A stretch of 64,000 nt of DNA from Lachnospiraceae bacterium MD335 (lineage in GTDB: Bacteria; Bacillota; Clostridia; Lachnospirales; Lachnospiraceae): contig KE159628.1 in NCBI GenBank assembly GCA_000403335.2, positions 1,004,850-1,068,849 on the forward strand, written 5' to 3'. How positions within the stretch are numbered: position 1 is the first letter of the stretch; the number at the start of each line of letters is the position of its first letter. A program made the translations under genes and the position numbers. The notes beneath the pieces are model-generated. The model was not told the origin of the DNA, made no database searches, and saw only the letters and a program-made list of their open reading frames with translations. Of the stretch, positions 1 to 10,561 are shown one piece after another.

Positions 1-172
1 TTTGGTCACAGGCTTCTTTCCGAAACTTTCGAAGCCAGTAGTAATAAGCTTTTTCTTTGATATCATTCTCCGCGAGCCATTGCTTGACCGACGTGCCAGA
101 TGGTCTGTTTTGGCATTGATGAATAATGTTTAGCCAGTTTGTGCGTCGTACATCATGTGTAGATTGATCCAT
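1..172 (-). CDS. tnpA: IS66 family accessory protein TnpA (partial)
   Basis: The minus-strand reading frame starts with ATG at 172 and runs off the window edge. It begins MDQSTHDVRRTNW and contains WLAENDI and YYYWLRKFR, which match the small helix-turn-helix protein (TnpA/Orf1) of Firmicute IS66 elements. An AGAGGAGG ribosome site lies 11 bases upstream. The protein is an accessory factor needed with TnpB and TnpC for transposition; those genes would lie further left, outside the window. Only about 57 residues are visible. Confidence 0.8.
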   Translation of the reverse strand, partial: MDQSTHDVRRTNWLNIIHQCQNRPSGTSVKQWLAENDIKEKAYYYWLRKFRKEACDQ

Positions 173-244
173 GACAGTTTGTGCCTCCTCTAAAAAACTA
201 CTAGTTTTTTCGTGTCTTTTAGAATATCGCACAAATATGCTAAC
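1..244 (-). mobile_element. End of an IS66-family insertion sequence
   Basis: The first 172 bases on the minus strand encode the start of an IS66-type accessory transposase protein. The element probably ends at about 244, where reading inward begins GTTAGCATATTTGTG, resembling the GTAAGCG/GTTAGC-like tips of IS66 elements. The sequence beyond continues in the frame of a large gene that lacks its own 5' end, so the element appears to have inserted into, or deleted up to, that gene. The rest of the element lies outside the window. The tip position is inferred; the second inverted repeat cannot be seen. Confidence 0.7.
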
Positions 245-2714
245 TAGCCAAGGCGAGAGATTTGACGTTTACCCTTTTGTACTGTCTATGCTCAAAGATA
301 TTGAAGAAATTGCTCTTGAAGCTACTAAGGAGAAGTATAAATATAGTCAACCCGTTTCGTGTGGTTTAGATGGTTCGCTAATTCATGAGATTATATATGA
401 ATCTGATATAGAGACGAAAAAAATCTATGTTTTAAATTTAACAGAAGAAAATACTACCATATCTATTGCGTTGGAACGTAGGGAACATGAAATTTATATC
501 CTACCCTTTGCAGGACAGCAGTCAAAGTTGTTCTGCGATTTTCCTTTGATAGGAACAGAAGATTTTCCTTTTCCGGTTTTAATTTTCGCAAGCGATTTCA
601 ACCCGACAGAACCGAGAGACGGTATTTATCTTACTTGTAAATCAAAAGCTGATGATAAAGTGGAACAAAACCGTAGCATTATTGAAACAGCATGTAGATT
701 GTATGAAAAGCTTCTTCAATATGTAGCGCAAAAGAAATGGGAGGGAACTTATAATATTACTCGGATTTGCTCATTTGGGAAAAAAGAGTGGATTGATGAG
801 GTGTGGATTGGAGATATCGTGGAGAATTGTAAAAAAATAATTCTTCATGTACCAATTATACATACCAGTGTTGATTCCATGATGGAATTAGAGGATTATT
901 TTGATGAAGAACAGATATATGTAATATCAGACTCTAAAGCAGAGATGCGCGAAAAAATATGGGATTTACTTTATGATATAATGCCTGAAAAGATTCCGTG
1001 TAAGAAAGATATTCATAATTGGTATTATTCCTTATGGAATGATTGTAATAAATACACTTTTAAATCACTAACAAAACAAATAAATGATTTTGGTAATGCA
1101 ATGCAATTACAGAGAGAAATAAAAAATAAGGATTGGCGTTCTTGGCTATCGATGTATTTTAATCTTATAGAGGATAATAGAAATCTTCAAACATATGTTG
1201 CAACTGAACAAGTTAATATTATTCCAAATCAAAATGGTGTATTTTGCCATGTAGAGGAATTGCATTTTGATAAAGAAATTTTAGACGAATATAAGGATAT
1301 ATTAAAACTGCTTGGCAACGATTGTAGAGGATGGCTTCTTGATTTGAAGTTTAGAAATAGAGATTGGTTTCGATTTGAGGAATGTGATGATGAACAGATA
1401 CTAAAATTGATAGAAAATAATTTAGATGATGCTGATAAACAGCAAAAAAGTGATATTTTGTTGCAGATGGTATGGCTATGTGATAGTAGGTACGATAACG
1501 TGGGTGTTCAAAGGCAGATATGCCACTATGCCAAGAGTATTTTGAAAGTTGACAATCAAATGATAGAAGTGCAAGTGGTTTCGGATAGGATATTACAAGA
1601 ATCCATGAAATATACAATAACTTGTGTGGCGGATCGAATTAGTGAGTATGGATGTATACAAGATTTTGCACAATATATGGAAATATCACAAGATGAGACG
1701 GTTCAGTTTTTAGCAGAGTTTATAGAATTTATTGTAAAGCAAGGATATGATAATCTTATCAATAAATTAACAAAACCAATTCTTCCGAATCAAAATGGAA
1801 ATTTTATGATTAAGGATGATATATTCCTTGATAATGAAATTGATGAAACACTGAAAGAGTTGGCTGTCAGTGCAGGATATGATATTAAGGCGGATTTATT
1901 AATAAGAGATATTTATTTGGTTCTACCAGAGAGTCGCTGGAAAAACAACATAGATTTGTCACCGCAAATTATACAATATGTAAATAGTAATAGAAGTCCA
2001 AAGGAAGAAGAGGTCAGAAATAATTTCAAGAAATTGTTGATATGGATGCGTGATCACGAAGAAATAGCGAAAGAGATTTTTCCTGATTTGTATAAGAATA
2101 AACATTATTTGTATGATGATGAACAAATTCTTGATGATATAAAACATGCTGATACTTTAAAGTATCTTATGCGGAAATTTAATGTATCCAGTCCGGAAAA
2201 ATTAGAGGAACTTATTGCCGAAGGCCAGATGCATTATGTTGAAAAATGTGATGAAAGGATTGAATTAACACAAGATGTATTGTTACAATTAGGAATTGAT
2301 TCTGAAGAGGCGTTGGACATTGCATTCAACAATACGGAGTTTGCAAATAAATATATCAGGACATCGAAACATGATACAGATACATATGAGTATGTCAGAT
2401 CAATTTTGGAAAGGTCAAAAAACAATATTCTTTCTTATTTAGACAGGCGGGAAGAGTATGATATAACTGATATGCGTTCGATAGCTAATACAATTTTTAT
2501 CATTAAGAAAGATGGAAAAGAAATATTTTTATTGGCGCGTCCATCTGATGGTGGAGAAGTAAGGATATTTTATGAAACAGAGAAAGATTTGTTGGATTAT
2601 TCAATGGATTGGGAACTTTGGGTAGAAGATGGAAAGAACGAACCACAGAAAATCACATTTGGAAAGATTATTAAACTGACTGGACTCAATAGAATACCAT
2701 TGAAAGGGATGTAG
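245..2714 (+). pseudogene. 5'-truncated sacsin/Hsp90-like ATPase-family protein
   Basis: An open frame of about 820 codons runs unbroken to a stop at 2714 but has no native start: the frame enters from the IS66 tip. The middle part carries CDFPLIGTEDFPFP and NPTEPRDGI, and the end carries LLARPSDGGEVRIFY and GKIIKLTGLNRIP. I recognise these from large bacterial proteins that start with a sacsin/Hsp90-like GHKL ATPase domain. That N-terminal domain (Bergerat fold, N-box, G-boxes) is missing, so the remnant should lack ATPase activity. In intact relatives the protein is probably a sensor or effector in genome defence (inference). Four bases separate it from the TIR gene, implying one operon. 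It could be weakly expressed from an internal ATG, but I see no convincing ribosome site. Confidence 0.7.
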
Positions 2715-2718
2715 ATAA

Positions 2719-4215
2719 ATGATACCAGATGAAAAAGAGGTTATAGATATCATACAAAATAATATGACAGACAATTTAATATGTAGAGCGTTGGAAATGC
2801 GTCCAGAAGAAATTACAAAATATGTATGTGGATTAGCCAATGTTGAAGGTGGATATGTTTTGATTGGTGTTGAAAGAGATAACGGTATATTAAAGGTAAA
2901 AGGTTTTCAGCTTGCATTTGATATGAAGACTGTTATGAATGATGTGTCTAAGAAACTAAAAGGCAAAATTCTTTTTGAATATGGTCATATATATGTGTTG
3001 GCAAAGAATATTTTTGCGATTAAAGTTGAAAAAGCAGAGAAAAAAATATCAATGAATGACATATGTTATTGTTATAAAAATAATAGCATAGAGGTATGTC
3101 GGGAAAACAAAAAGAATCCTTCAACTTTATTTATTTCATATACAGAATGTGATGCTCCAATAGTGGATATAATTGAAAAGAAGATTTCTGAAAAGTTACG
3201 AAATAGGGTTAAAATATCACGTTATATTGGCTTAGAATATAAAGACAGTTTTAAAACTTTTATGGACACAATTCAAGATCATGATTTTGTTTTAACGATT
3301 GTAAGTGATACATATTTAAGAAGACAAGCCTGTATGTATGAAGTGGGAGAAATAATTAAGGATCATCATTATAAAGACAAGCTTTTGTTTGTTGTTCTAA
3401 CTGAGAAGGAGCGAAAATATTATGGAAAGAACGCACCAGATAAGATTGAAGCAGATATATACAAGGGAGCAACATCTAAACTGGAGTATACGCGGTATTG
3501 GAAAAAGCAGTATGAAGAATTAGAGGAAGCTATGAAGCAAATAAATGATTATGAGGCAACAAGACAGGCGACTTATGATCTTCAAGTAATTGGTCAGATA
3601 TATAGAAAAGACATAGGTGAATTTTTGCAATTTTTGTCTGATGAAAATGGAAAGAGTTTTCAAAAGTTATACGATAATGACTTTAATGAACTGATTAAAT
3701 GGATATTTCCTGAATATGAGCCGAATATTTTTAATCAGTGTGATTGTTTTGGCATTTTATTACATAATTCTATTGAACAATTGCATCGTATAACAAAAGC
3801 TGACTATAATCAAATTGCCCTTGGAATAAAGACGGATAGCCATAAAACAGGATTGATGGTTTTTGCAGATGATATTGCGGGATATAAGCAAAGATACCGT
3901 TTAGTTGTAATGGATGGGTTAATGGCAAAATCATATGTAACAGGAAACAATATTTTAGTTAATAATGTAAAACAAGAAGTTGAGTACTTTTGTGCAGTTT
4001 TTCAGACTAAATCGGAAGTAGTATTACCTATTAAATATGGGGGGAAAGTTATAGGTGTATTTAATTCTGAAAGTGAAGAAGAAAATTATTATAACCAAGA
4101 GATGGTAATTCAATTGACAAAAGTACTTGTGGACTTTGCAGATAAAATAATTGAATTAGGGTATGTAGGGAATATGACACAAAACGATTTACCATATGTT
4201 CATATTATAGTATAA
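2719..4215 (+). CDS. AlbA_2-TIR-GAF three-domain protein, candidate defence effector
   Basis: The 498-residue protein has three recognisable parts. Residues about 15-125 resemble the AlbA_2/Schlafen-like nucleic-acid-binding domain (ITKYVCGLANVEGGYVLIGV). Residues about 135-260 are a TIR domain beginning STLFISYTECDAP and containing SDTYLRRQACMYE, with E208 in the position of the catalytic glutamate of NAD-cleaving TIRs. Residues about 330-475 resemble a GAF domain, with FGILLHNSI and VVLPIKYGGKVIGVFNSES. The gene starts four bases after the truncated Hsp90-like gene, with AAAGGGATG as ribosome site. By family knowledge TIR domains with this glutamate deplete NAD+ or make signal nucleotides. 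The AlbA part may sense nucleic acid and the GAF a small ligand (inference). The gene looks intact although its partner is broken. Confidence 0.75.
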   Translation: MIPDEKEVIDIIQNNMTDNLICRALEMRPEEITKYVCGLANVEGGYVLIGVERDNGILKVKGFQLAFDMKTVMNDVSKKLKGKILFEYGHIYVLAKNIFAIKVEKAEKKISMNDICYCYKNNSIEVCRENKKNPSTLFISYTECDAPIVDIIEKKISEKLRNRVKISRYIGLEYKDSFKTFMDTIQDHDFVLTIVSDTYLRRQACMYEVGEIIKDHHYKDKLLFVVLTEKERKYYGKNAPDKIEADIYKGATSKLEYTRYWKKQYEELEEAMKQINDYEATRQATYDLQVIGQIYRKDIGEFLQFLSDENGKSFQKLYDNDFNELIKWIFPEYEPNIFNQCDCFGILLHNSIEQLHRITKADYNQIALGIKTDSHKTGLMVFADDIAGYKQRYRLVVMDGLMAKSYVTGNNILVNNVKQEVEYFCAVFQTKSEVVLPIKYGGKVIGVFNSESEEENYYNQEMVIQLTKVLVDFADKIIELGYVGNMTQNDLPYVHIIV

Positions 4216-4266: not shown

Positions 4267-4494
4267 TTGAGCGGTACCGCTCAAAAAAATGCTAAAAAGG
4301 AAGAAAGAATCAATGCGCTGCTTGAATATTGCAAAGAGCCGAGAGGCAGAGATGAGATGATGAAGTTTCTTTGTATAAAACACAGAACAACATTCAGAAG
4401 CGATTACCTGAATCCATTATTGGATGAGGGTAAAATTGCAATGACAATACCTGATAAGCCGCAAAGCAAGAATCAAAAATTTTACTCTGTTTAA
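4267..4494 (+). pseudogene. 3' remnant with C-terminal winged-helix domain
   Basis: The frame opens at a TTG and encodes 75 residues. INALLEYCKEPRGRDEMM and NPLLDEGKIAMTIPDKP are typical of the last about 60 residues of Fic-family or AlbA_2/ATP-binding (AAA_4-like) proteins, which end in a winged helix. There is no good ribosome site and the upstream domains are missing, so this is probably the tail of a deleted gene rather than a small protein. Confidence 0.55.
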
Positions 4495-4649
4495 CTTTCA
4501 CGAAATAACAAATTTGCAATCTGCAACGGTAGGAGCAATGTCAAAAGCCTGATATTTTGCGGTTTTGGCATTGCTTCCTGTAATTTTGGGGATTTTATAG
4601 TTCTTTTAACTTTCGCTAATTTTCATATTCATAAAATTTGGCATCAATT

Positions 4650-5096
4650 TCATCTGGAACATTCAAGATATTTATTTTTATACGTCAAAGCCTGTTCCGG
4701 TTTCTGCCATCGGGTGTACAGGCTATTCAGGTACAAATAAACGGTTTTGGCATAATCGTTATCGACTCCCATGACTTCCGAAATAATATTCTCGGCAGAT
4801 AAAAGATGAAGTTCGGATTTTTTAGCATTGCCTTCGGAAAGCGCAATTGCGCCATACATCATCTGGCAGACTCCATTATCTAAAGTTTGTGTTCCCTCAT
4901 GTTCCAAAACAAGATTCTCATAGGTGGAAAGAACCTGTTTTGCCATATCCGTATTTTTGGAAAGAATCAACATATTAGTCAGATTTATTAATTGTTGCAG
5001 CATATCATGTGATTCTACCAGTCCAAGGTGCGCATATTCCTGACGGATGGTTAAAGCGGTATGGAGCATTTCAGCAGCCTCTTTCGTCTTTTTCAT
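4650..5096 (-). pseudogene. TPR-repeat protein fragment
   Basis: The minus-strand frame (148 residues, stop at 4650) is rich in helical TPR-like units, for example AAEMLHTALTIRQEYAHLG and LYLNSLYTRWQKPEQALTYK. Clostridial TPR proteins of this type are several hundred residues long, so this is only the C-terminal part. Its apparent ATG at 5096 falls exactly where the plus strand begins to encode a serine recombinase, so the start is a rearrangement junction and not a native start. No product is expected unless from an internal start. Confidence 0.5.
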
Positions 5097-6360
5097 CTAC
5101 CGATGATGATGAGCAGTTAGGGAGCTTTGAATCACAGAAACTGTATTATGAACAAAAGATAGCATCAAATAAAGATTGGGTAAATGCAGGAATATTTGCG
5201 GATGAAGCGGTCACAGGAACAAAGACGGATAAGCGGAGTGGGTTTCAGGATATGATTGCTCATTGCCACAATGGCGAAATAGATATGATACTTGGATCGG
5301 TAGTAAATGTCTTTCCCAGAAGAATATCCCCTTTGTACTTTTCATTCTTAATCATCCCCATAACACCATGCGTATGCCAGCTTACTTCTCCTTTTTTATT
5401 CTTAATTCCAAGTTCCATTAACCGTTTTGCAATCGTGGTCGTTCCATAACCCTCCAGATACATGTCATAAATCATACGGACAATCTCCGCTTCTTCCTCA
5501 TTGACAGTTATGCTCTTGTCCTCGGTATGATAATCATATCCATAACAGCCATTGAAACCGATCAATTCGCCACGCTTCATTTTCATCTGCAATCCCATCT
5601 TGACATTCTGTGAGAGCGACTCCACTTCCTGCTGTGCTAAGGAACTCATAATAGTCAATAACAGCTCGCCGTTCATATCAAGTGTATTGATATTTTCCTT
5701 CTCGAAAAATATGGCAATATTCCGGTCGCGGAGCATTCTCACATAATTCAGCGTATCTACCGTGTTGCGGGCAAACCGTGAAATAGACTTTGTAATTTCC
5801 AAACGCAGGCTTGCAAATATGGGAGAAGAAAACCAGTATTATCTCAGAGATCATCATGAGCCGATTGTCTCAAGAGAAATATGGGATAAAGCAGAGGAAA
5901 TACGCATGAAGCGTTCCAGAAATAAAGTAGTTGAAACAACCGGAAACAGGGAACGTTATACACGTCAGTATTCCTTCAGCAGTATGTGCGAATGTGCCTA
6001 TTGCGGACATAAGCTCACACGCAGGACAAGACACAGCAGGTCTGATTATGAAAAACCGGTGTGGCAGTGTATGAATGCCACTAAGAATGGCATTGCCAAC
6101 TGTCCGAACTGTAAAGCAGTCGATGAAGCAATTTTAGAGGGAGCTTTTCTGGATGCCTTTGGACTGCTGGCAGGTAATTTTGATGATGTGCTGGATGTGG
6201 TATTGTCATATGTGGCGGAATCGGCTGACAGTGATGAAAATATGCGTAAAAAACAGCAGATTGATAAGGATATTTCTTCATTGGAATCAAAAAAATCGCG
6301 GATGACAGATATGTTGATTGATGGTACAATATCCAAAGAGGTGTACGAGGAAAGTCAAAG
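5097..6360 (+). pseudogene. Serine recombinase gene with inverted centre and both ends lost
   Basis: Three pieces of one large serine recombinase lie here. The plus strand at 5097-5293 gives the resolvase-domain part (STDDDEQLGSFESQK, AVTGTKTDKRSGFQ). The centre (5294-5793) is readable only on the minus strand: SISRFARNTVDTLNYVR, LAQQEVESLSQNVK, GYGTTTIAKRL. The plus strand at 5794-6360 gives the C-terminal part with the zinc-ribbon cysteines (CAYCGHKLTRR ... CPNC). Flipping 5294-5793 restores a continuous frame through both joints (MIL-TKSISRF and TTDP-ISKRRL). The first few residues with the catalytic serine region and the end after VYEES are missing. The gene cannot make an active enzyme in this form. 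Confidence 0.75.
5294..5793 (-). other. 500-bp inverted segment inside a serine recombinase gene
   Basis: This block encodes the central part of the recombinase on the opposite strand to its flanks. Rejoining in silico gives frame-perfect reading at both ends, so the breakpoints are accurate to about 2 bases. The joints share only a TT dinucleotide (CTT|GGATC on the left, AATT|ACAAAG on the reverse complement of the right); no longer inverted repeat is visible. Serine recombinases cut at a 2-bp core, so self-catalysed inversion at weak sites is conceivable, but a chimeric assembly is equally possible. Confidence 0.7.
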
Positions 6361-6647
6361 ATTTTCATTTTTGCCGCAACCCATATGAAATTCAGCAAGA
6401 GTACCTTAAGATGTTTGTGGACAAGGATAAAATAAAGTGTTTTGCTACAAAACACGCACGGAGAGTAGAGTGGTTAAAGGAGAATACTCAAGATGTAAAA
6501 ATTCAATATGGTTTGGATGATAGGGAATGGGATGTAAAAGGTATTTTTATTGTGAGTAAACCACTTATTAGTAACTCCATATATAAACAAAATATAAAAT
6601 GTATTTCCAAAGCGGAACTGTGTGCGGAGATAATTAGAAATATTTAA
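6361..6647 (+). pseudogene. 3' fragment of an unrecognised gene
   Basis: After the recombinase sequence stops matching at about 6360, a new frame reads to a stop at 6647: it includes EWLKENTQDVKIQYG, DREWDVKGIFIVSKPLI and SKAELCAEIIRNI. This looks like the end of a larger protein because the start is not natural. I do not recognise the family; the style (WDVKGIFIVSKP) suggests a nuclease-like or large hypothetical protein C-terminus, but that is a guess. Confidence 0.4.
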
Positions 6648-6709: not shown

Positions 6710-7708
6710 ATGTATAAAAAAAATTTCTGTTTATGTGTATTTTTGATTTTGTTGCTTTGTTCTGCTTGTGGAAATACAGAAATACCATTTACAACAGAAG
6801 ATAATCAAGAAAGTAGCCAAGCGAGTGATGAAGTTCCAAGTAATCAGAATATAGATGTTGTTTTTCAAGATAAATTAACATATTCAAATTTAGACAGTGA
6901 ATCATCTATGAGTGAAATACGGGATATTTTGACCAAAGCTGGTATTCAGACAAATCATGTTGATACTGTATTGAGCTGGGTAACAGATTATAATGACAGT
7001 ATGAGGGAATGTCCGTCTTTTTCTTTAATTGGGGATTTTGTTACAGTAGACGGAATGACAGTAGATTATGGAGAATACCCGCCCATGTCTGTATGGTGGT
7101 ACAAACATAATAACCGGAATTACCATGATGTTCTTTGCAGGATTGTAGCTTATGAGTTAAATCATGACAATATTTCAGCAGGAAATGTAATCAAAGAAGA
7201 AAATTTTGATTGTTGGGACGAGAATACAGCATGGCTTTATACAGACGGCGATATTCTTTTCGGACGGGAAGCCGTAGAGGGCGAACATAAAGCGTATGTT
7301 CCTTTTCCGCTGATTGAGTGGAGTAAAGATATGCAGGCAGAATATTTTACCCTGTTTAATCCGATTCACATTACAGAGCAGTGCAGTGAACAGGAAATGT
7401 TTCAAGCCATTCAAGAAAAATGGAATGAGCAGGAAATTTCATTCAAAGAAAGTACATTTTCTTTAATTACTTTTTGGACGCAAAGTGGTGATAGAATATG
7501 CGCTTCACATGCTGCTACTTTGATAGAAATAGATAATGGATATTTGCTATTTGAAAAAACCAATCCGGAATCTCCCTATGCGGCAACAAAATTTTCTTCT
7601 ATCGATGAAGTAAAGCAATATTTATATAACATGATGAAGTTAGACTATTCAAGATATAATGACCAAATTGGAACTTATATTATTTTGCAAAATGATACGT
7701 TGCTTTAA
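6710..7708 (+). CDS. DUF4300 family lipoprotein
   Basis: The 332-residue protein begins MYKKNFCLCVFLILLLCSAC, a lipoprotein signal with the acylated cysteine at C20, so it should be anchored outside the membrane. A Ser/Asn/Glu-rich linker (21-55) precedes LTYSNLDSESSMSEIRDIL and AGIQTNHVDTVLSWVTDYN, which resemble the start of DUF4300 proteins of Clostridia and streptococci. The function of that family is unknown. An ACGGAGG ribosome site is well placed, and a hairpin with a T-run follows at 7749. The gene appears monocistronic and intact, unlike its surroundings. Confidence 0.75.
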   Translation: MYKKNFCLCVFLILLLCSACGNTEIPFTTEDNQESSQASDEVPSNQNIDVVFQDKLTYSNLDSESSMSEIRDILTKAGIQTNHVDTVLSWVTDYNDSMRECPSFSLIGDFVTVDGMTVDYGEYPPMSVWWYKHNNRNYHDVLCRIVAYELNHDNISAGNVIKEENFDCWDENTAWLYTDGDILFGREAVEGEHKAYVPFPLIEWSKDMQAEYFTLFNPIHITEQCSEQEMFQAIQEKWNEQEISFKESTFSLITFWTQSGDRICASHAATLIEIDNGYLLFEKTNPESPYAATKFSSIDEVKQYLYNMMKLDYSRYNDQIGTYIILQNDTLL

Positions 7709-7748
7709 TATAATATTACGTCTATAATTTCATATTTTTCATTTTTGG

Positions 7749-7788
7749 GGCAGCGATTATCTTAACAGACAATCAGCTACCTTTTTTA
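7749..7788 (+). terminator. Rho-independent terminator after the DUF4300 gene
   Basis: An imperfect stem (GGCAGCGATTATC with GACAATCAGCTACC) is followed by six T residues, 40 bases after the stop codon. Confidence 0.6.
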
Positions 7789-7834
7789 TTTTCAGAAACT
7801 ATCAACACAGCACAGAAAGAATGAGGTATCAGAA

Positions 7835-8017
7835 ATGATTGAGAGCAAGAATGATGCAAGCAGAAATTTAGAAAAAGCATTGCAGGAAATGGAACAGGCG
7901 AAAGAAATGCTCATGCTTGCCAGGCAGGAACTGTATAGCGCACAGTATGCCAAGATTAAGAGTACAGCGGTCAGCGTGAAGAATGAAGTCATGGAGATGA
8001 TTGCAAAAGTGAGGTAG
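7835..8017 (+). CDS. Small helical protein of unknown function
   Basis: A 60-residue frame encodes an almost entirely helical, charged peptide (ALQEMEQAKEMLMLARQEL), probably a coiled coil. The ribosome site AATGAGG is modest. I do not recognise the family. It sits between the DUF4300 terminator and a second short frame in a region rich in gene remnants, so it may be a fragment. Confidence 0.4.
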   Translation: MIESKNDASRNLEKALQEMEQAKEMLMLARQELYSAQYAKIKSTAVSVKNEVMEMIAKVR

Positions 8018-8061
8018 TGCAAAAGCAGGCTTGAGGGCAGAAACTAAACCAATTAAAGGAA

Positions 8062-8343
8062 TTGTCAAAAATGTATGCCCTCTTTGCGCCAATCCAAGCC
8101 ACCTATAAGGAGAGCCAGTCACTCAAAGGACTTGTGAAAATGAAATACGATAAGGAGCATAAAGACAGCTTATCAAAGTACCCCGAATTAAAAGAGCGTA
8201 TGCAGAGATTACATTTCAGCATGAATGAGGCTGATTTAGTATTCTATCTTCGTGATAAAAATGAAGGCGTTGGAGGTGAGGTTGGCACTAGATATGAGCT
8301 TCGCAGAAAATATTGGACATATTCTTTATGGAATAGTATCTAA
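8062..8343 (+). CDS. Short hypothetical protein or gene fragment
   Basis: A frame of up to 93 residues opens with TTG at 8062 and includes SLKGLVKMKYDKEHKDSL and YPELKERMQRLHFSMNEAD. The wording resembles pieces of mobilisation or plasmid-associated proteins, but I cannot name the family. The last about 20 residues (RYELRRKYWTYSLWNSI) look like read-through into unrelated sequence. It is likely a remnant. Confidence 0.3.
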   Translation: MSKMYALFAPIQATYKESQSLKGLVKMKYDKEHKDSLSKYPELKERMQRLHFSMNEADLVFYLRDKNEGVGGEVGTRYELRRKYWTYSLWNSI

Positions 8344-8351
8344 TATTCTTA

Positions 8352-8380
8352 TTGCTTCATCATCGTAACACCGATATAAT
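8352..8380 (+). promoter_or_regulatory. Promoter of the HipA-like operon
   Basis: TTGCTT at 8352 and TATAAT at 8375 are separated by exactly 17 bases and lie just upstream of the helix-turn-helix gene at 8393. This is a good sigma-A type promoter by eye. Confidence 0.6.
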
Positions 8381-8392
8381 ATATTTGAGGCG

Positions 8393-8849
8393 ATGACGTT
8401 GACACTAAATGAACTGCTGCAAACGAGGGAGCTTTCCCGTTACAGTCTGTCAGAAAAGAGCGGGGTGCCGTGGGCAATCCTGTCGGATCTGTGTTCCGGC
8501 AGAACAAAATTTGAGCAGTGCAGCGCGGCAACACTTTCCAAGCTGTCAAAGGCGCTGAAAATCAGTATGGAGGAGTTACTGCTTTTGGAAACGGGAGATC
8601 GCATGGGCGGGGATGGAAAACCAAAAGATAAAGAATATTTGGAAACAGGACTGCCGGATAGCCTGCAGCATGCCATTGATGAATTTGTCCAAGGAGAGAA
8701 AGAGCAGGTATCCTATATGGACTGCCTTTGGGGGGGAACTGTATGGTTCTATCAATGCATGCCGGTGGGGAGACAGGATTACAGAAGAGCAGGCAGATTA
8801 TCTGCGGAAAAAATATCTGTTTGGAGGAGAGGAGGCAGCGGATGATTGA
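8393..8849 (+). pseudogene. HTH antitoxin (HipB-like), frameshifted
   Basis: The first frame encodes an XRE-type helix-turn-helix (LSRYSLSEKSGVPWAILSDL, then LSKLSKALKISMEELLLL). At the run of seven G near 8730 the coding sense shifts by one: the old frame turns to nonsense, while the next frame continues CLWGELYGSINACRWGDRITEEQ to a stop at 8849. The protein would pair with the HipA-like toxin downstream, whose ATG overlaps this stop (ATGATTGA). The damage is a single-base difference in a homopolymer, so it may be a sequencing error rather than a real mutation. Confidence 0.7.
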
Positions 8850-9776
8850 TTTTACGCCATGCGAAGTCAATAAATTTAAGGCATATGGCGGTGCAAACGG
8901 GAATAAAGTCCATATTCTTTATCAGAAAAAAGGCTGCATGCTGAAATTTCCGCCAGTGCCCGGACGAAGCAAGACTATGGGTTACACAAACAGCTGTATC
9001 AGCGAATACCTTGCCTGCCATATCTATGAAATGTTTGGATTGAAGGTACAGGAAACGCTTCTCGGCGCTTATACGGACAGGCGGGGGAAAGAAAAAACGG
9101 TGGTTGCCTGCCGTGATTTCACGGATAACGGAAAGAAGTTGATTGAATTTGCACAGCTGAAAAATACCTGTATTAACAGTGAACAGAACGGATATGGCAC
9201 GGAGCTTTCTTCGATTATGACGGCAATTGGCGAACAGGAACTGATTCCGGCGGAGGAACTGCGGGGATTTTTTTGGATATGTTCATAGTGGACGCCCTGC
9301 TTGGCAACTTCGACCGTCATAACGGGAACTGGGGCATCCTTGTGGACGAGGAAAAACAGACGGCTGAAATTGCTCCTGTATATGACTGCGGTTCCTGTCT
9401 TTATCCGCAGCTTGCGTCAGGCGAAATGAAGGATGTACTGGAAAAAGAAGAAGAAATTGACAGACGAATATTTGTTTATCCCACATCTGCGGTGGAAGAA
9501 GACGGAAAAAAGATTTCATATTTTGATTTTATTTCATCCCTGAAAAACCGGGACTGTAATGCCGCCCGGAGACGTATCTATGAACGGATAGATATGGAGC
9601 AGATCGACTGGCTGGTGGCGGAAACGCCGTTTACTGAACCGATACAGAGAGAATTTTATCAGGTTATGATTCGGGAGAGAAAAGAGAAGATACTGGATTA
9701 TAGCATGGAGCAGCTTATGAAGCTGGAGAAACAGCAGGACAGGATACAGGAGCATTTTTCCGGTAATTATAGCTAA
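8842..9776 (+). pseudogene. HipA-like kinase toxin, frameshifted
   Basis: The frame from ATG 8842 encodes the N-terminal part (FTPCEVNKFKAYGGANGNK) and breaks at a run of seven T at 9268-9274. The following frame carries the kinase core FIVDALLGNFDRHNGNWGIL, with the D-x5-N-x-D-R-H-N pattern of HipA-family catalytic loops, then APVYDCGSCLYP. HipA kinases phosphorylate translation factors or tRNA synthetases and are held by the HTH partner. Adding one T restores a protein of about 310 residues. Together with the G-run shift in its partner this makes two homopolymer shifts in one operon. The operon is followed by a terminator at 9813. Confidence 0.75.
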
Positions 9777-9812
9777 GTGTGTGTTTGAGTTATGGTCTGA
9801 GTAAAATGTCAG

Positions 9813-9838
9813 ACTGTCATAAGACAGTACTTTTTATT
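9813..9838 (+). terminator. Terminator after the HipA-like operon
   Basis: ACTGTC-ATAA-GACAGT is followed by ACTTTTTATTT. The stem is short (6 bp) but perfect. Confidence 0.5.
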
Positions 9839-9853
9839 TGGAGGTAAAAACAA

Positions 9854-10561
9854 ATGATTAACTTGGACAAAAGCGAGAACTGGAGCAGTTGGGAAGATTG
9901 GGTTAAAACCAAGAAAGCCCATTATGGCTCAAAAACAGGATTGCAAGTTTACGGAGGAATTATTGATTTTGACCCGGACATGCAGAAGGATTTAGTAGGC
10001 GGAGATAAAATAACTTATAATGAGTATCTTGACTTGCAGATGATAGCTTGCGAAAGAAAAGGAGCCGTGCGTTGGGATTTTGCAATGTGCTACTACTATA
10101 TTCCTTTAGAGTTTAAGGGAGAGATTGAACGCATTACTGGAAAAGCAGTATGCTTCAAGCGTATTTTTGTTTCAGGCATGTATCCAGATGGAATGTGCTT
10201 TGATGGAAAAGAAGACCATGTTTGGATTGATAAGCACGGAATTGAGGGATATAGTGTTGGCGACTGTCTGTCATTTTTTGCAGAACCATACCGTTATATT
10301 AAGACCGGAAATGGAAAGCAGATTGACTTTGGACTCCGTAATCCTCAAGACATCAAAAAAATAGAAAAGTATGTATTGCCTTCTGATGAAGAATTGATGC
10401 TACAGTCAATTGATGCTATTATCTGTGAAACTTGCTACCTTAATGAACAATGCTTCAGGGGTATGTGTATCAGAGATAAAAAAGAACGTCAGTCTTTGAG
10501 AAAGGATATGCTCAAAGCTGTAAAAGAATCAGGAAAGAGGAGGAATACAAGGTACAGCTAA
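9854..10561 (+). CDS. Hypothetical protein with C-terminal cysteine cluster
   Basis: The 235-residue protein starts after a TTTGGAGG ribosome site and begins MINLDKSENWSSWEDWVK. The C-terminal 45 residues contain CETCYLNEQCFRGMC, a four-cysteine cluster (C-x2-C-x5-C-x4-C) that could bind zinc or an iron-sulphur centre. No signal peptide or membrane segment is visible. I do not recognise the family. It lies alone between the HipA-like terminator and a large hairpin. Confidence 0.65.
   Translation: MINLDKSENWSSWEDWVKTKKAHYGSKTGLQVYGGIIDFDPDMQKDLVGGDKITYNEYLDLQMIACERKGAVRWDFAMCYYYIPLEFKGEIERITGKAVCFKRIFVSGMYPDGMCFDGKEDHVWIDKHGIEGYSVGDCLSFFAEPYRYIKTGNGKQIDFGLRNPQDIKKIEKYVLPSDEELMLQSIDAIICETCYLNEQCFRGMCIRDKKERQSLRKDMLKAVKESGKRRNTRYS

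Follow-up and report, generated by a model that had tools for sequence, protein, structure and literature searches.

The left end of a 64,000-nucleotide stretch of the Lachnospiraceae bacterium MD335 genome (contig KE159628.1, positions 1,004,850 to 1,068,849; hereafter, the window) carries two adjacent forward-strand genes: tmtA, which encodes a sacsin/Hsp90-like GHKL ATPase and is interrupted here by a mobile element, and a gene for an intact protein with AlbA, TIR and GAF-like domains. After analyzing these genes and their relatives, we consider it fairly probable that they represent a two-gene defence module of the abortive-infection type, a branch of the Tiamat system, in which TmtA would act as the sensor and AlbA as the tether of a killing domain that can be exchanged. 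We infer four steps of this scheme: sensing, docking, NADase activity and cell death. In this putative mechanism, the TmtA clamp would sense a phage cue, and its C-terminal tail would hold the partner protein, the product of the following gene, by its AlbA domain. An ATP-driven change of the clamp would gather or release the AlbA protein, whose C-terminal domain would then attack the cell. Here, the TIR domain would cleave NAD+, and the GAF-like domain may tune this activity. The AlbA arm of relatives carries a Cap12-type TIR domain, a nuclease-like part or a caspase, the last in one chain with TmtA. As a family, GHKL ATPases work as clamps driven by ATP, and TIR domains that have the conserved glutamate are in many cases NADases.

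The large gene encodes the Tiamat protein TmtA. Its downstream part (273..2714, forward strand) corresponds to approximately residues 214-1024 of the homologue in a Lachnospiraceae metagenome-assembled genome (locus L008), to which it is 87% identical, and it matches the PADLOC TmtA model PDLC03967 (E=3.9e-73, 245 bits, model positions 201-911 of 1063). The open reading frame (ORF) called at 171-2714 begins within the mobile element, and its TmtA homology spans 273-2714. The intact TmtA of L008 (1024 aa) matches the same model with 464 bits over residues 5-898, in one stretch that ends at model position 909 of 1063, before the tail; the TmtA of locus L009 gave two PADLOC stretches, the second without a position in the output. 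The PADLOC match covers most of TmtA, the feature that defines membership in Tiamat. Moreover, L008 TmtA scored 72 bits, against a cut-off of 50, for the sacsin N-terminal ATP-binding domain of NCBIfam, a result that, together with the PADLOC assignment, bears out the sacsin/Hsp90-like label given to the large gene in a preliminary description of this DNA. A pattern search detected the GHKL motifs of the N-box (ELxQNAxD) and GKFGTGF in 15/15 homologues and a G1-like H-x-G in 14 of the 15. In the window genome, the GHKL ATPase motifs are located upstream of the insertion.

Four bases separate tmtA from the partner gene, an intact ORF at 2719..4215 (forward strand) whose 498-aa product, the proposed effector, is 90% identical to its counterpart in L008 and 98% identical to that in L051, a contig from a viral collection. 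Its AlbA_2 (Schlafen-type) domain at 2803..3081 and its TIR domain at 3130..3408 both exceed the Pfam cut-offs (SLFN_AlbA_2, 5.8e-9, 37 bits against 25.3, beginning at profile position 17; TIR_2, 4.1e-7, 31 bits against 28). The GAF-like domain at 3760..4119 stays below the curated cut-offs (GAF_2, 6.9e-5, 23.5 bits against 28.6; GAF, 2.6e-3), as it does in L008, L009 and L051, and its PDB matches (4e-4 to 0.015) are to chains that we take to be GAF domains. The intact AlbA-TIR-GAF gene of the preliminary description was thus confirmed, with its third domain at the weaker grade. Within the conserved TIR motif ACMYEVGE, Glu208 (3340-3342) is a candidate catalytic residue; the motif, in the form [AG]CMYEV[SG]E, was present in 10/10 TIR_2 partners examined, and its glutamate is presumably the catalytic one. 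A Schlafen-like ExxxLEFK acidic motif, in the form that we assume for it, was not found by pattern in the first 40 residues of any of 16 partners; therefore, AlbA is more likely to serve here as a binding part than as a nuclease. A PADLOC search with the AlbA-TIR-GAF protein returned no match at E<=1, and Foldseek with its AlphaFold model found TIR chains only weakly (best E 6.5e-3) and nothing of any kind under 0.001.

The adjacency of the two genes recurs in relatives. Searches seeded with TmtA yielded 22 loci: nine from 299 genomes of the family, eight from an order sample, two from viral contigs and three from plasmids. The order sample comprised 392 genomes, and its eight further loci came from seven more genomes. 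L036, which has the same genes as L009, was counted once, and two weak PDLC03967 matches in the phylum (G450 and G690), whose DNA gave no match to our TmtA model, were dropped before counting. Three loci were unreadable on the downstream side, two of them cut at or near contig ends (G122 and G136) and one a 168-aa fragment in Priestia. Among the 19 readable loci, an AlbA gene came next in 15, was fused to tmtA in one and was lacking in three (G047 and plasmids of Calothrix and Dolichospermum). Over 15 pairs, a set that includes L008 and excludes the interrupted window locus, the gap between tmtA and the AlbA gene ranged from -10 to +24 bases, with overlaps in three. A TIR-containing partner lay directly downstream in 12/19 readable loci. 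These counts and the defence-gene surroundings given below support the conserved two-gene unit that had been proposed, and neither outcome named beforehand as refuting it (a large gene that normally lacks a TIR partner, or a pair outside mobile or defence regions) was observed; the expectation that a TIR gene would always be next held in those 12 loci and failed in another three of the 19, where the AlbA protein has no TIR domain.

Judged from the sequences, the constant part of the partner is AlbA, not TIR. The effectors among 15 next-gene partners were TIR_2 in nine (the window locus included, with or without GAF), a Cap12/Pycsar-type TIR of family PF10137 in three (L042, L071 and L072) and a nuclease-like part in three. 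The nuclease-like C-terminal part carries an invariant GEVDILI..IIEALN motif in 3/3 partners and is read, by this motif only, as PD-(D/E)XK-like. Among the partners scanned, the window protein and 12 others exceeded the Pfam AlbA_2 cut-off. When the AlbA profile was rebuilt without each effector class in turn and searched against 752 ORFs plus the held-out proteins, 15/15 held-out members were recovered at 41-85 bits, the three nuclease-like partners at 41-49 bits. Because profiles built without a class still recover its members, the AlbA domains of the classes tested are one family. In the fusion (L073), a single frame of 1689 aa contains a sacsin domain, the TmtA tail, AlbA (1295-1408) and a caspase domain (1432-1629), with all three Pfam domains above cut-off. 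This protein scored 1013 bits against PDLC03972, the best stretch ending at position 1116 of 1302, before the tail. Within the genus of the fusion, G805 carries the split form, its effector being a Cap12-type TIR, and two further genomes gave no match. One genome (G964, an assembly rated 9% contaminated) holds two modules with different effectors. L037, nested among GAF-bearing relatives, lacks GAF; no GAF remnant was found by eye after its stop codon in three frames.

This exchange of effectors bears on the direction of signaling. As in Thoeris, the TIR protein could be the sensor and TmtA the effector, switched on by a cyclic ADP-ribose messenger that the TIR protein makes, and the Thoeris abstracts do describe messengers of that kind from some TIR proteins. 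However, the same AlbA arm bears nuclease-like and caspase domains, which would make no such messenger. The replacement of TIR by these domains therefore disfavors a messenger role, and we regard this direction as very improbable. Furthermore, no ThsA-type partner was found beside the window TIR gene, which is preceded by tmtA and then by a gene of the ApeA type, and followed by an ORF for a Fic-like piece.

In the proposed module, the putative dock for AlbA is the C-terminal TmtA tail (RPSD...ELW...G...TG...PL; 2352..2714, forward strand in the window), which is conserved in 15 aligned homologues. In the fusion, the tail stands directly before AlbA, whose match begins seven residues after the tail match. 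Among 752 ORFs in 117 loci, many of them overlapping, tail and AlbA co-occur with few exceptions: in the two cyanobacterial plasmids, the tail is weaker and AlbA is lacking from the DNA covered (50 of 57.8 kb in Calothrix and 15 of 200.8 kb in Dolichospermum), and one AlbA-type ORF (18 bits) occurs in L010, a locus with a decayed AlbA-TIR relic and no TmtA ORF in the 19 kb examined. Loci with the longer TmtA model PDLC03968 had AlbA in 0/6 by our profile, one of them lying at a contig end (L090) and another nearly so (L091). In a separate TmtA relative (L043 8194-11469), the C-terminal tail is replaced by a NO VEIN domain (PF13020), and an AlbA partner is lacking.

The association also holds in the reverse direction. 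An AlbA-TIR-GAF alignment matched 13/299 family genomes; the AlbA part was covered in six of these, TmtA was present in 6/6, and the other seven matches were to the TIR region only. An AlbA-TIR alignment gave nine matches among 385 order genomes, of which five were full-length, 5/5 beside TmtA; the remaining four start at position 97 or later, and the one that was fetched (G894) had no AlbA by our profile. In contrast, 17 viral-contig loci related by the Cap12-type TIR had neither AlbA nor TmtA by our profiles, so AlbA is not a general companion of that effector. Tiamat is usually listed as TmtA alone, and the AlbA-TIR gene might be a defence gene in its own right that merely shares islands with tmtA. 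In favor of this explanation, PADLOC needs no second gene to assign TmtA and lacks a model for the partner, and three readable TmtA loci are without an AlbA neighbor. However, the explanation would have to account for near-zero-gap adjacency in 15/19 loci, the correlated divergence described below, the reverse association of 6/6 and 5/5 and the TmtA-AlbA-caspase fusion; we therefore consider it unlikely.

The two proteins have diverged together. Distances between TmtA proteins correlated with those between AlbA domains at r=0.94, and 0 of 9999 permutations reached this value. On the TmtA tree, the five effector labels require six changes, compared with a minimum of four and a mean of 10.8 after shuffling. 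Relative to L008, the ratio of nonsynonymous to synonymous divergence (dN/dS) was 0.10-0.20 for both TmtA parts and the TIR gene, which shows purifying selection on all of them. Between the window and L051, synonymous divergence was 0.02 for the TIR gene, 0.10 and 0.23 for the two TmtA parts and 0.25 for ApeA; this difference between genes suggests recombination within the cassette.

Several observations weigh against the two-gene module. The tmtA genes of the two cyanobacterial plasmids carry the tail without an AlbA neighbor, and that of G047 has neither tail nor AlbA. Fifteen of the loci had themselves supplied the tail profile, and the material independent of it comprises only the fusion, G047, the cyanobacterial loci and the PDLC03968-type loci, the last without AlbA. 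The pair is rare, with TmtA in 9/299 family genomes and 10/392 order genomes. The deep forks of the TmtA tree lack resolution, and thus the number of effector swaps cannot be read from it; the dN/dS of 0.47 for the TIR gene between the window and L051 comes at a dS of 0.018, with too few changes to read. Pfam AlbA_2 stayed below its cut-off of 25.3 in the three nuclease-like partners (24.7, 22.2 and 19), and for their nuclease-like part a PDB profile search and Pfam at E<=10 gave nothing significant. The AlphaFold models, each from a five-row alignment, were too poor for use for TmtA (mean pLDDT, the predicted local distance difference test score, of 35) and unusable for AlbA-TIR-GAF (48).

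The searches of further collections were mostly negative. In a phylum sample of 398 genomes, our model found TmtA only in the window genome. The phage collection gave no TmtA match, the plasmid collection gave none to two AlbA-TIR queries, and the viral contigs held no relatives of the nuclease-type partner or of one TmtA subgroup. A second TmtA query in plasmids returned the same three plasmids as the first, and the fused protein of L073 matched 26 plasmid records in part, in no case across more than 80% of its length.

The interruption of the sensor gene probably leaves the module switched off in the window genome. The window begins inside the mobile element, whose right end (1..272; ORF 2-232 on the reverse strand; inverted end at 260-272) is inserted in tmtA after about residue 213 of 1024. 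Both ends of the element share 13 bases as inverted copies, and the right copy of an 8-bp target duplication (273..280) is matched by an identical left copy that immediately precedes the element, in the DNA upstream of the window (L006). There, the N-terminal part of TmtA, which holds the ATPase motifs, also persists as an open frame (L006:18555-19199; HATPase_c, 28.6 bits, cut-off 26.4; PADLOC TmtA, 1.8e-61, 207 bits). Given this open ATPase part and the duplications and inverted ends that flank the element, tmtA is split, not shortened. It had been suggested that the element removes exactly the ATPase domain; a deletion of this kind is ruled out by the same evidence, and the seeming loss arises because the window edge cuts the gene there. 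The start of large-gene homology, previously placed at 245, likewise moves to 273, as the element runs to 272. The insertion looks recent, since both tmtA parts are still open, with dN/dS of 0.12 and 0.20 relative to L008. We keep the IS66 name from the preliminary description as an assumption based on features typical of that family (an 8-bp duplication and GTAA-type ends); 535 bases within the element are N, so its sequence was seen incomplete, and a Pfam scan of ORF 2-232 gave nothing at E<=1. A stretch of the element end is also encoded at three other sites of the same genome (L002, L003 and L004; 70-74% over 31-35 residues).

The interrupted locus bears on a further explanation, in which the two genes form a toxin-antitoxin-like pair: TmtA would keep the AlbA-effector toxin folded or silent, and phage inhibition of TmtA would free the toxin. 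An Hsp90-type ATPase beside a potential NADase would suit such a pair, as would the tight spacing, with overlaps in 3/15 pairs. However, the TIR frame has been kept intact while tmtA is interrupted, and the caspase fusion would bind toxin and guard permanently. The first of these objections is softened by polarity: an upstream insertion in the same operon could silence the TIR gene, and an intact frame is therefore weak evidence of harmlessness. In view of this possible silencing, the earlier suggestion that the retained TIR gene identifies the partner that is harmless alone is unsupported. We regard the toxin-antitoxin-like pair as quite unlikely.

Several copies of the two-gene module have defence genes nearby. 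We scanned eight loci with PADLOC, using neighboring proteins picked for their defence-like look. The window genome (L006) has ApeA and the YhcG-type PDC-S02, together with HsdR by Pfam; L008 has ApeA and a weak LmuA match, together with HsdS and HsdR by Pfam. The PADLOC neighbors of the other loci were CBASS (cyclic oligonucleotide-based antiphage signaling system) genes and AbiD in L009, type I restriction-modification genes and PDC-S02 in L039, a type I methyltransferase in L069, a TIR-SIR2 protein partly of the ThsA type in L068, Gabija in L071 and AbiL in L037. The co-location with known defence systems raised in the preliminary description thus holds for several loci (beside type I restriction-modification, CBASS, AbiL, Gabija and Thoeris-like genes), with neighbors chosen by hand. 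In L008, ApeA, TmtA and AlbA-TIR-GAF are consecutive, with type I restriction-modification genes upstream and a phage-type integrase downstream, and L051 has the same triplet. Three loci (the window genome, L008 and L051) have an ApeA-type gene before tmtA. A phmmer search of L008 ApeA against the 752 ORFs gave no match in other loci, and this restriction to three loci led us to reject ApeA as a third core component. In L009, CBASS genes precede TmtA and AlbA-TIR-GAF: a 2TM-NUDIX effector and a SMODS cyclase (4458-6638) immediately precede TmtA, in the position that ApeA takes in three other loci. The copy in L052 adjoins a phage tail tape-measure gene, and its TmtA frame (7623-10304) is the uninterrupted continuation of approximately 120 residues from a different frame that resembles a phage tail protein, through either a genuine insertion-made fusion or a chimera in the assembly.

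Downstream of the TIR gene in the window, a small TTG-start ORF (4267-4494, forward strand) encodes a Fic-like C-terminal domain (PF21247, 5.8e-18); it is kept in L008, is mostly absent from L051 and is possibly the tail of a lost gene. A reverse-strand fragment at 4650-5096 resembles the C-terminal end of a tetratricopeptide repeat/NTPase gene that is intact in L008 (11960-14284). Beyond it, up to 6388, there are apparent serine-recombinase pieces on both strands, as judged by eye.

Compared with known systems, the AlbA-effector arrangement stands apart from Shedu, Schlafen proteins, CBASS and ApeA. VcSduA, a Shedu protein, has a GHKL ATPase proposed to control a PD-(D/E)xK nuclease effector, and variants in either activity are reported to abolish defence (PMC12137116). 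VcSduA is one chain with DUF4263, whereas the present module has two genes, an AlbA linker and other effectors, and the Pfam scans of TmtA proteins and their partners found no DUF4263; VcSduA is similar in logic and not a family member. Bacterial Schlafen defence proteins have the AlbA_2 domain in common with the partner, but the acidic motif is absent by pattern from the 16 partners, and the killing domain here is separate (TIR or other); some overlap between the two groups is possible. The TIR domains of L042, L071 and L072 belong to the same family (PF10137) as the Cap12 NADase effectors of CBASS and Pycsar; the NCBIfam Cap12 models gave 34 against a cut-off of 450 on L042. Unlike in those systems, TIR is joined here to AlbA and paired with TmtA rather than with a cyclic-nucleotide sensor. 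The HEPN protein ApeA is encoded before tmtA in three loci and lies outside the core module.

The closest known system is Tiamat (TmtA; PADLOC PDLC03964-03972), with which this locus shares the large GHKL/sacsin-type ATPase. The difference is that an AlbA-effector gene or domain follows here, and the PADLOC matches of L008 and L073 stop before the tail. The preliminary description did not recall the pair as a named system; its large gene is Tiamat TmtA, and the partner, as noted, is new to PADLOC. We recognised no open-access paper in which an AlbA-TIR partner is linked to Tiamat or to an ATPase of the sacsin type; subscription papers were mostly outside this search, and a prior description is possible. 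The mechanism of Tiamat is listed as unknown in a recent review (PMC12926258). Sacsin-like ATPases in animals are described as giant chaperones (PMC3710099), and the arrangement would link this type of ATPase to bacterial cell-suicide immunity. Tiamat is widely catalogued, and a constant adaptor, exchangeable downstream effectors and the caspase fusion would point to its likely executioner gene. We give about even chances to the wider proposal that these Tiamat systems work as modular immune receptors split over two genes, with a sacsin-like ATPase sensor that has a C-terminal dock and an AlbA adaptor that bears varied killing domains, in some cases all within a single chain. If this is true, the missing Tiamat effector would be supplied, and sacsin-like ATPases would be a bacterial counterpart of receptors of the nucleotide-binding leucine-rich repeat type with exchangeable outputs.

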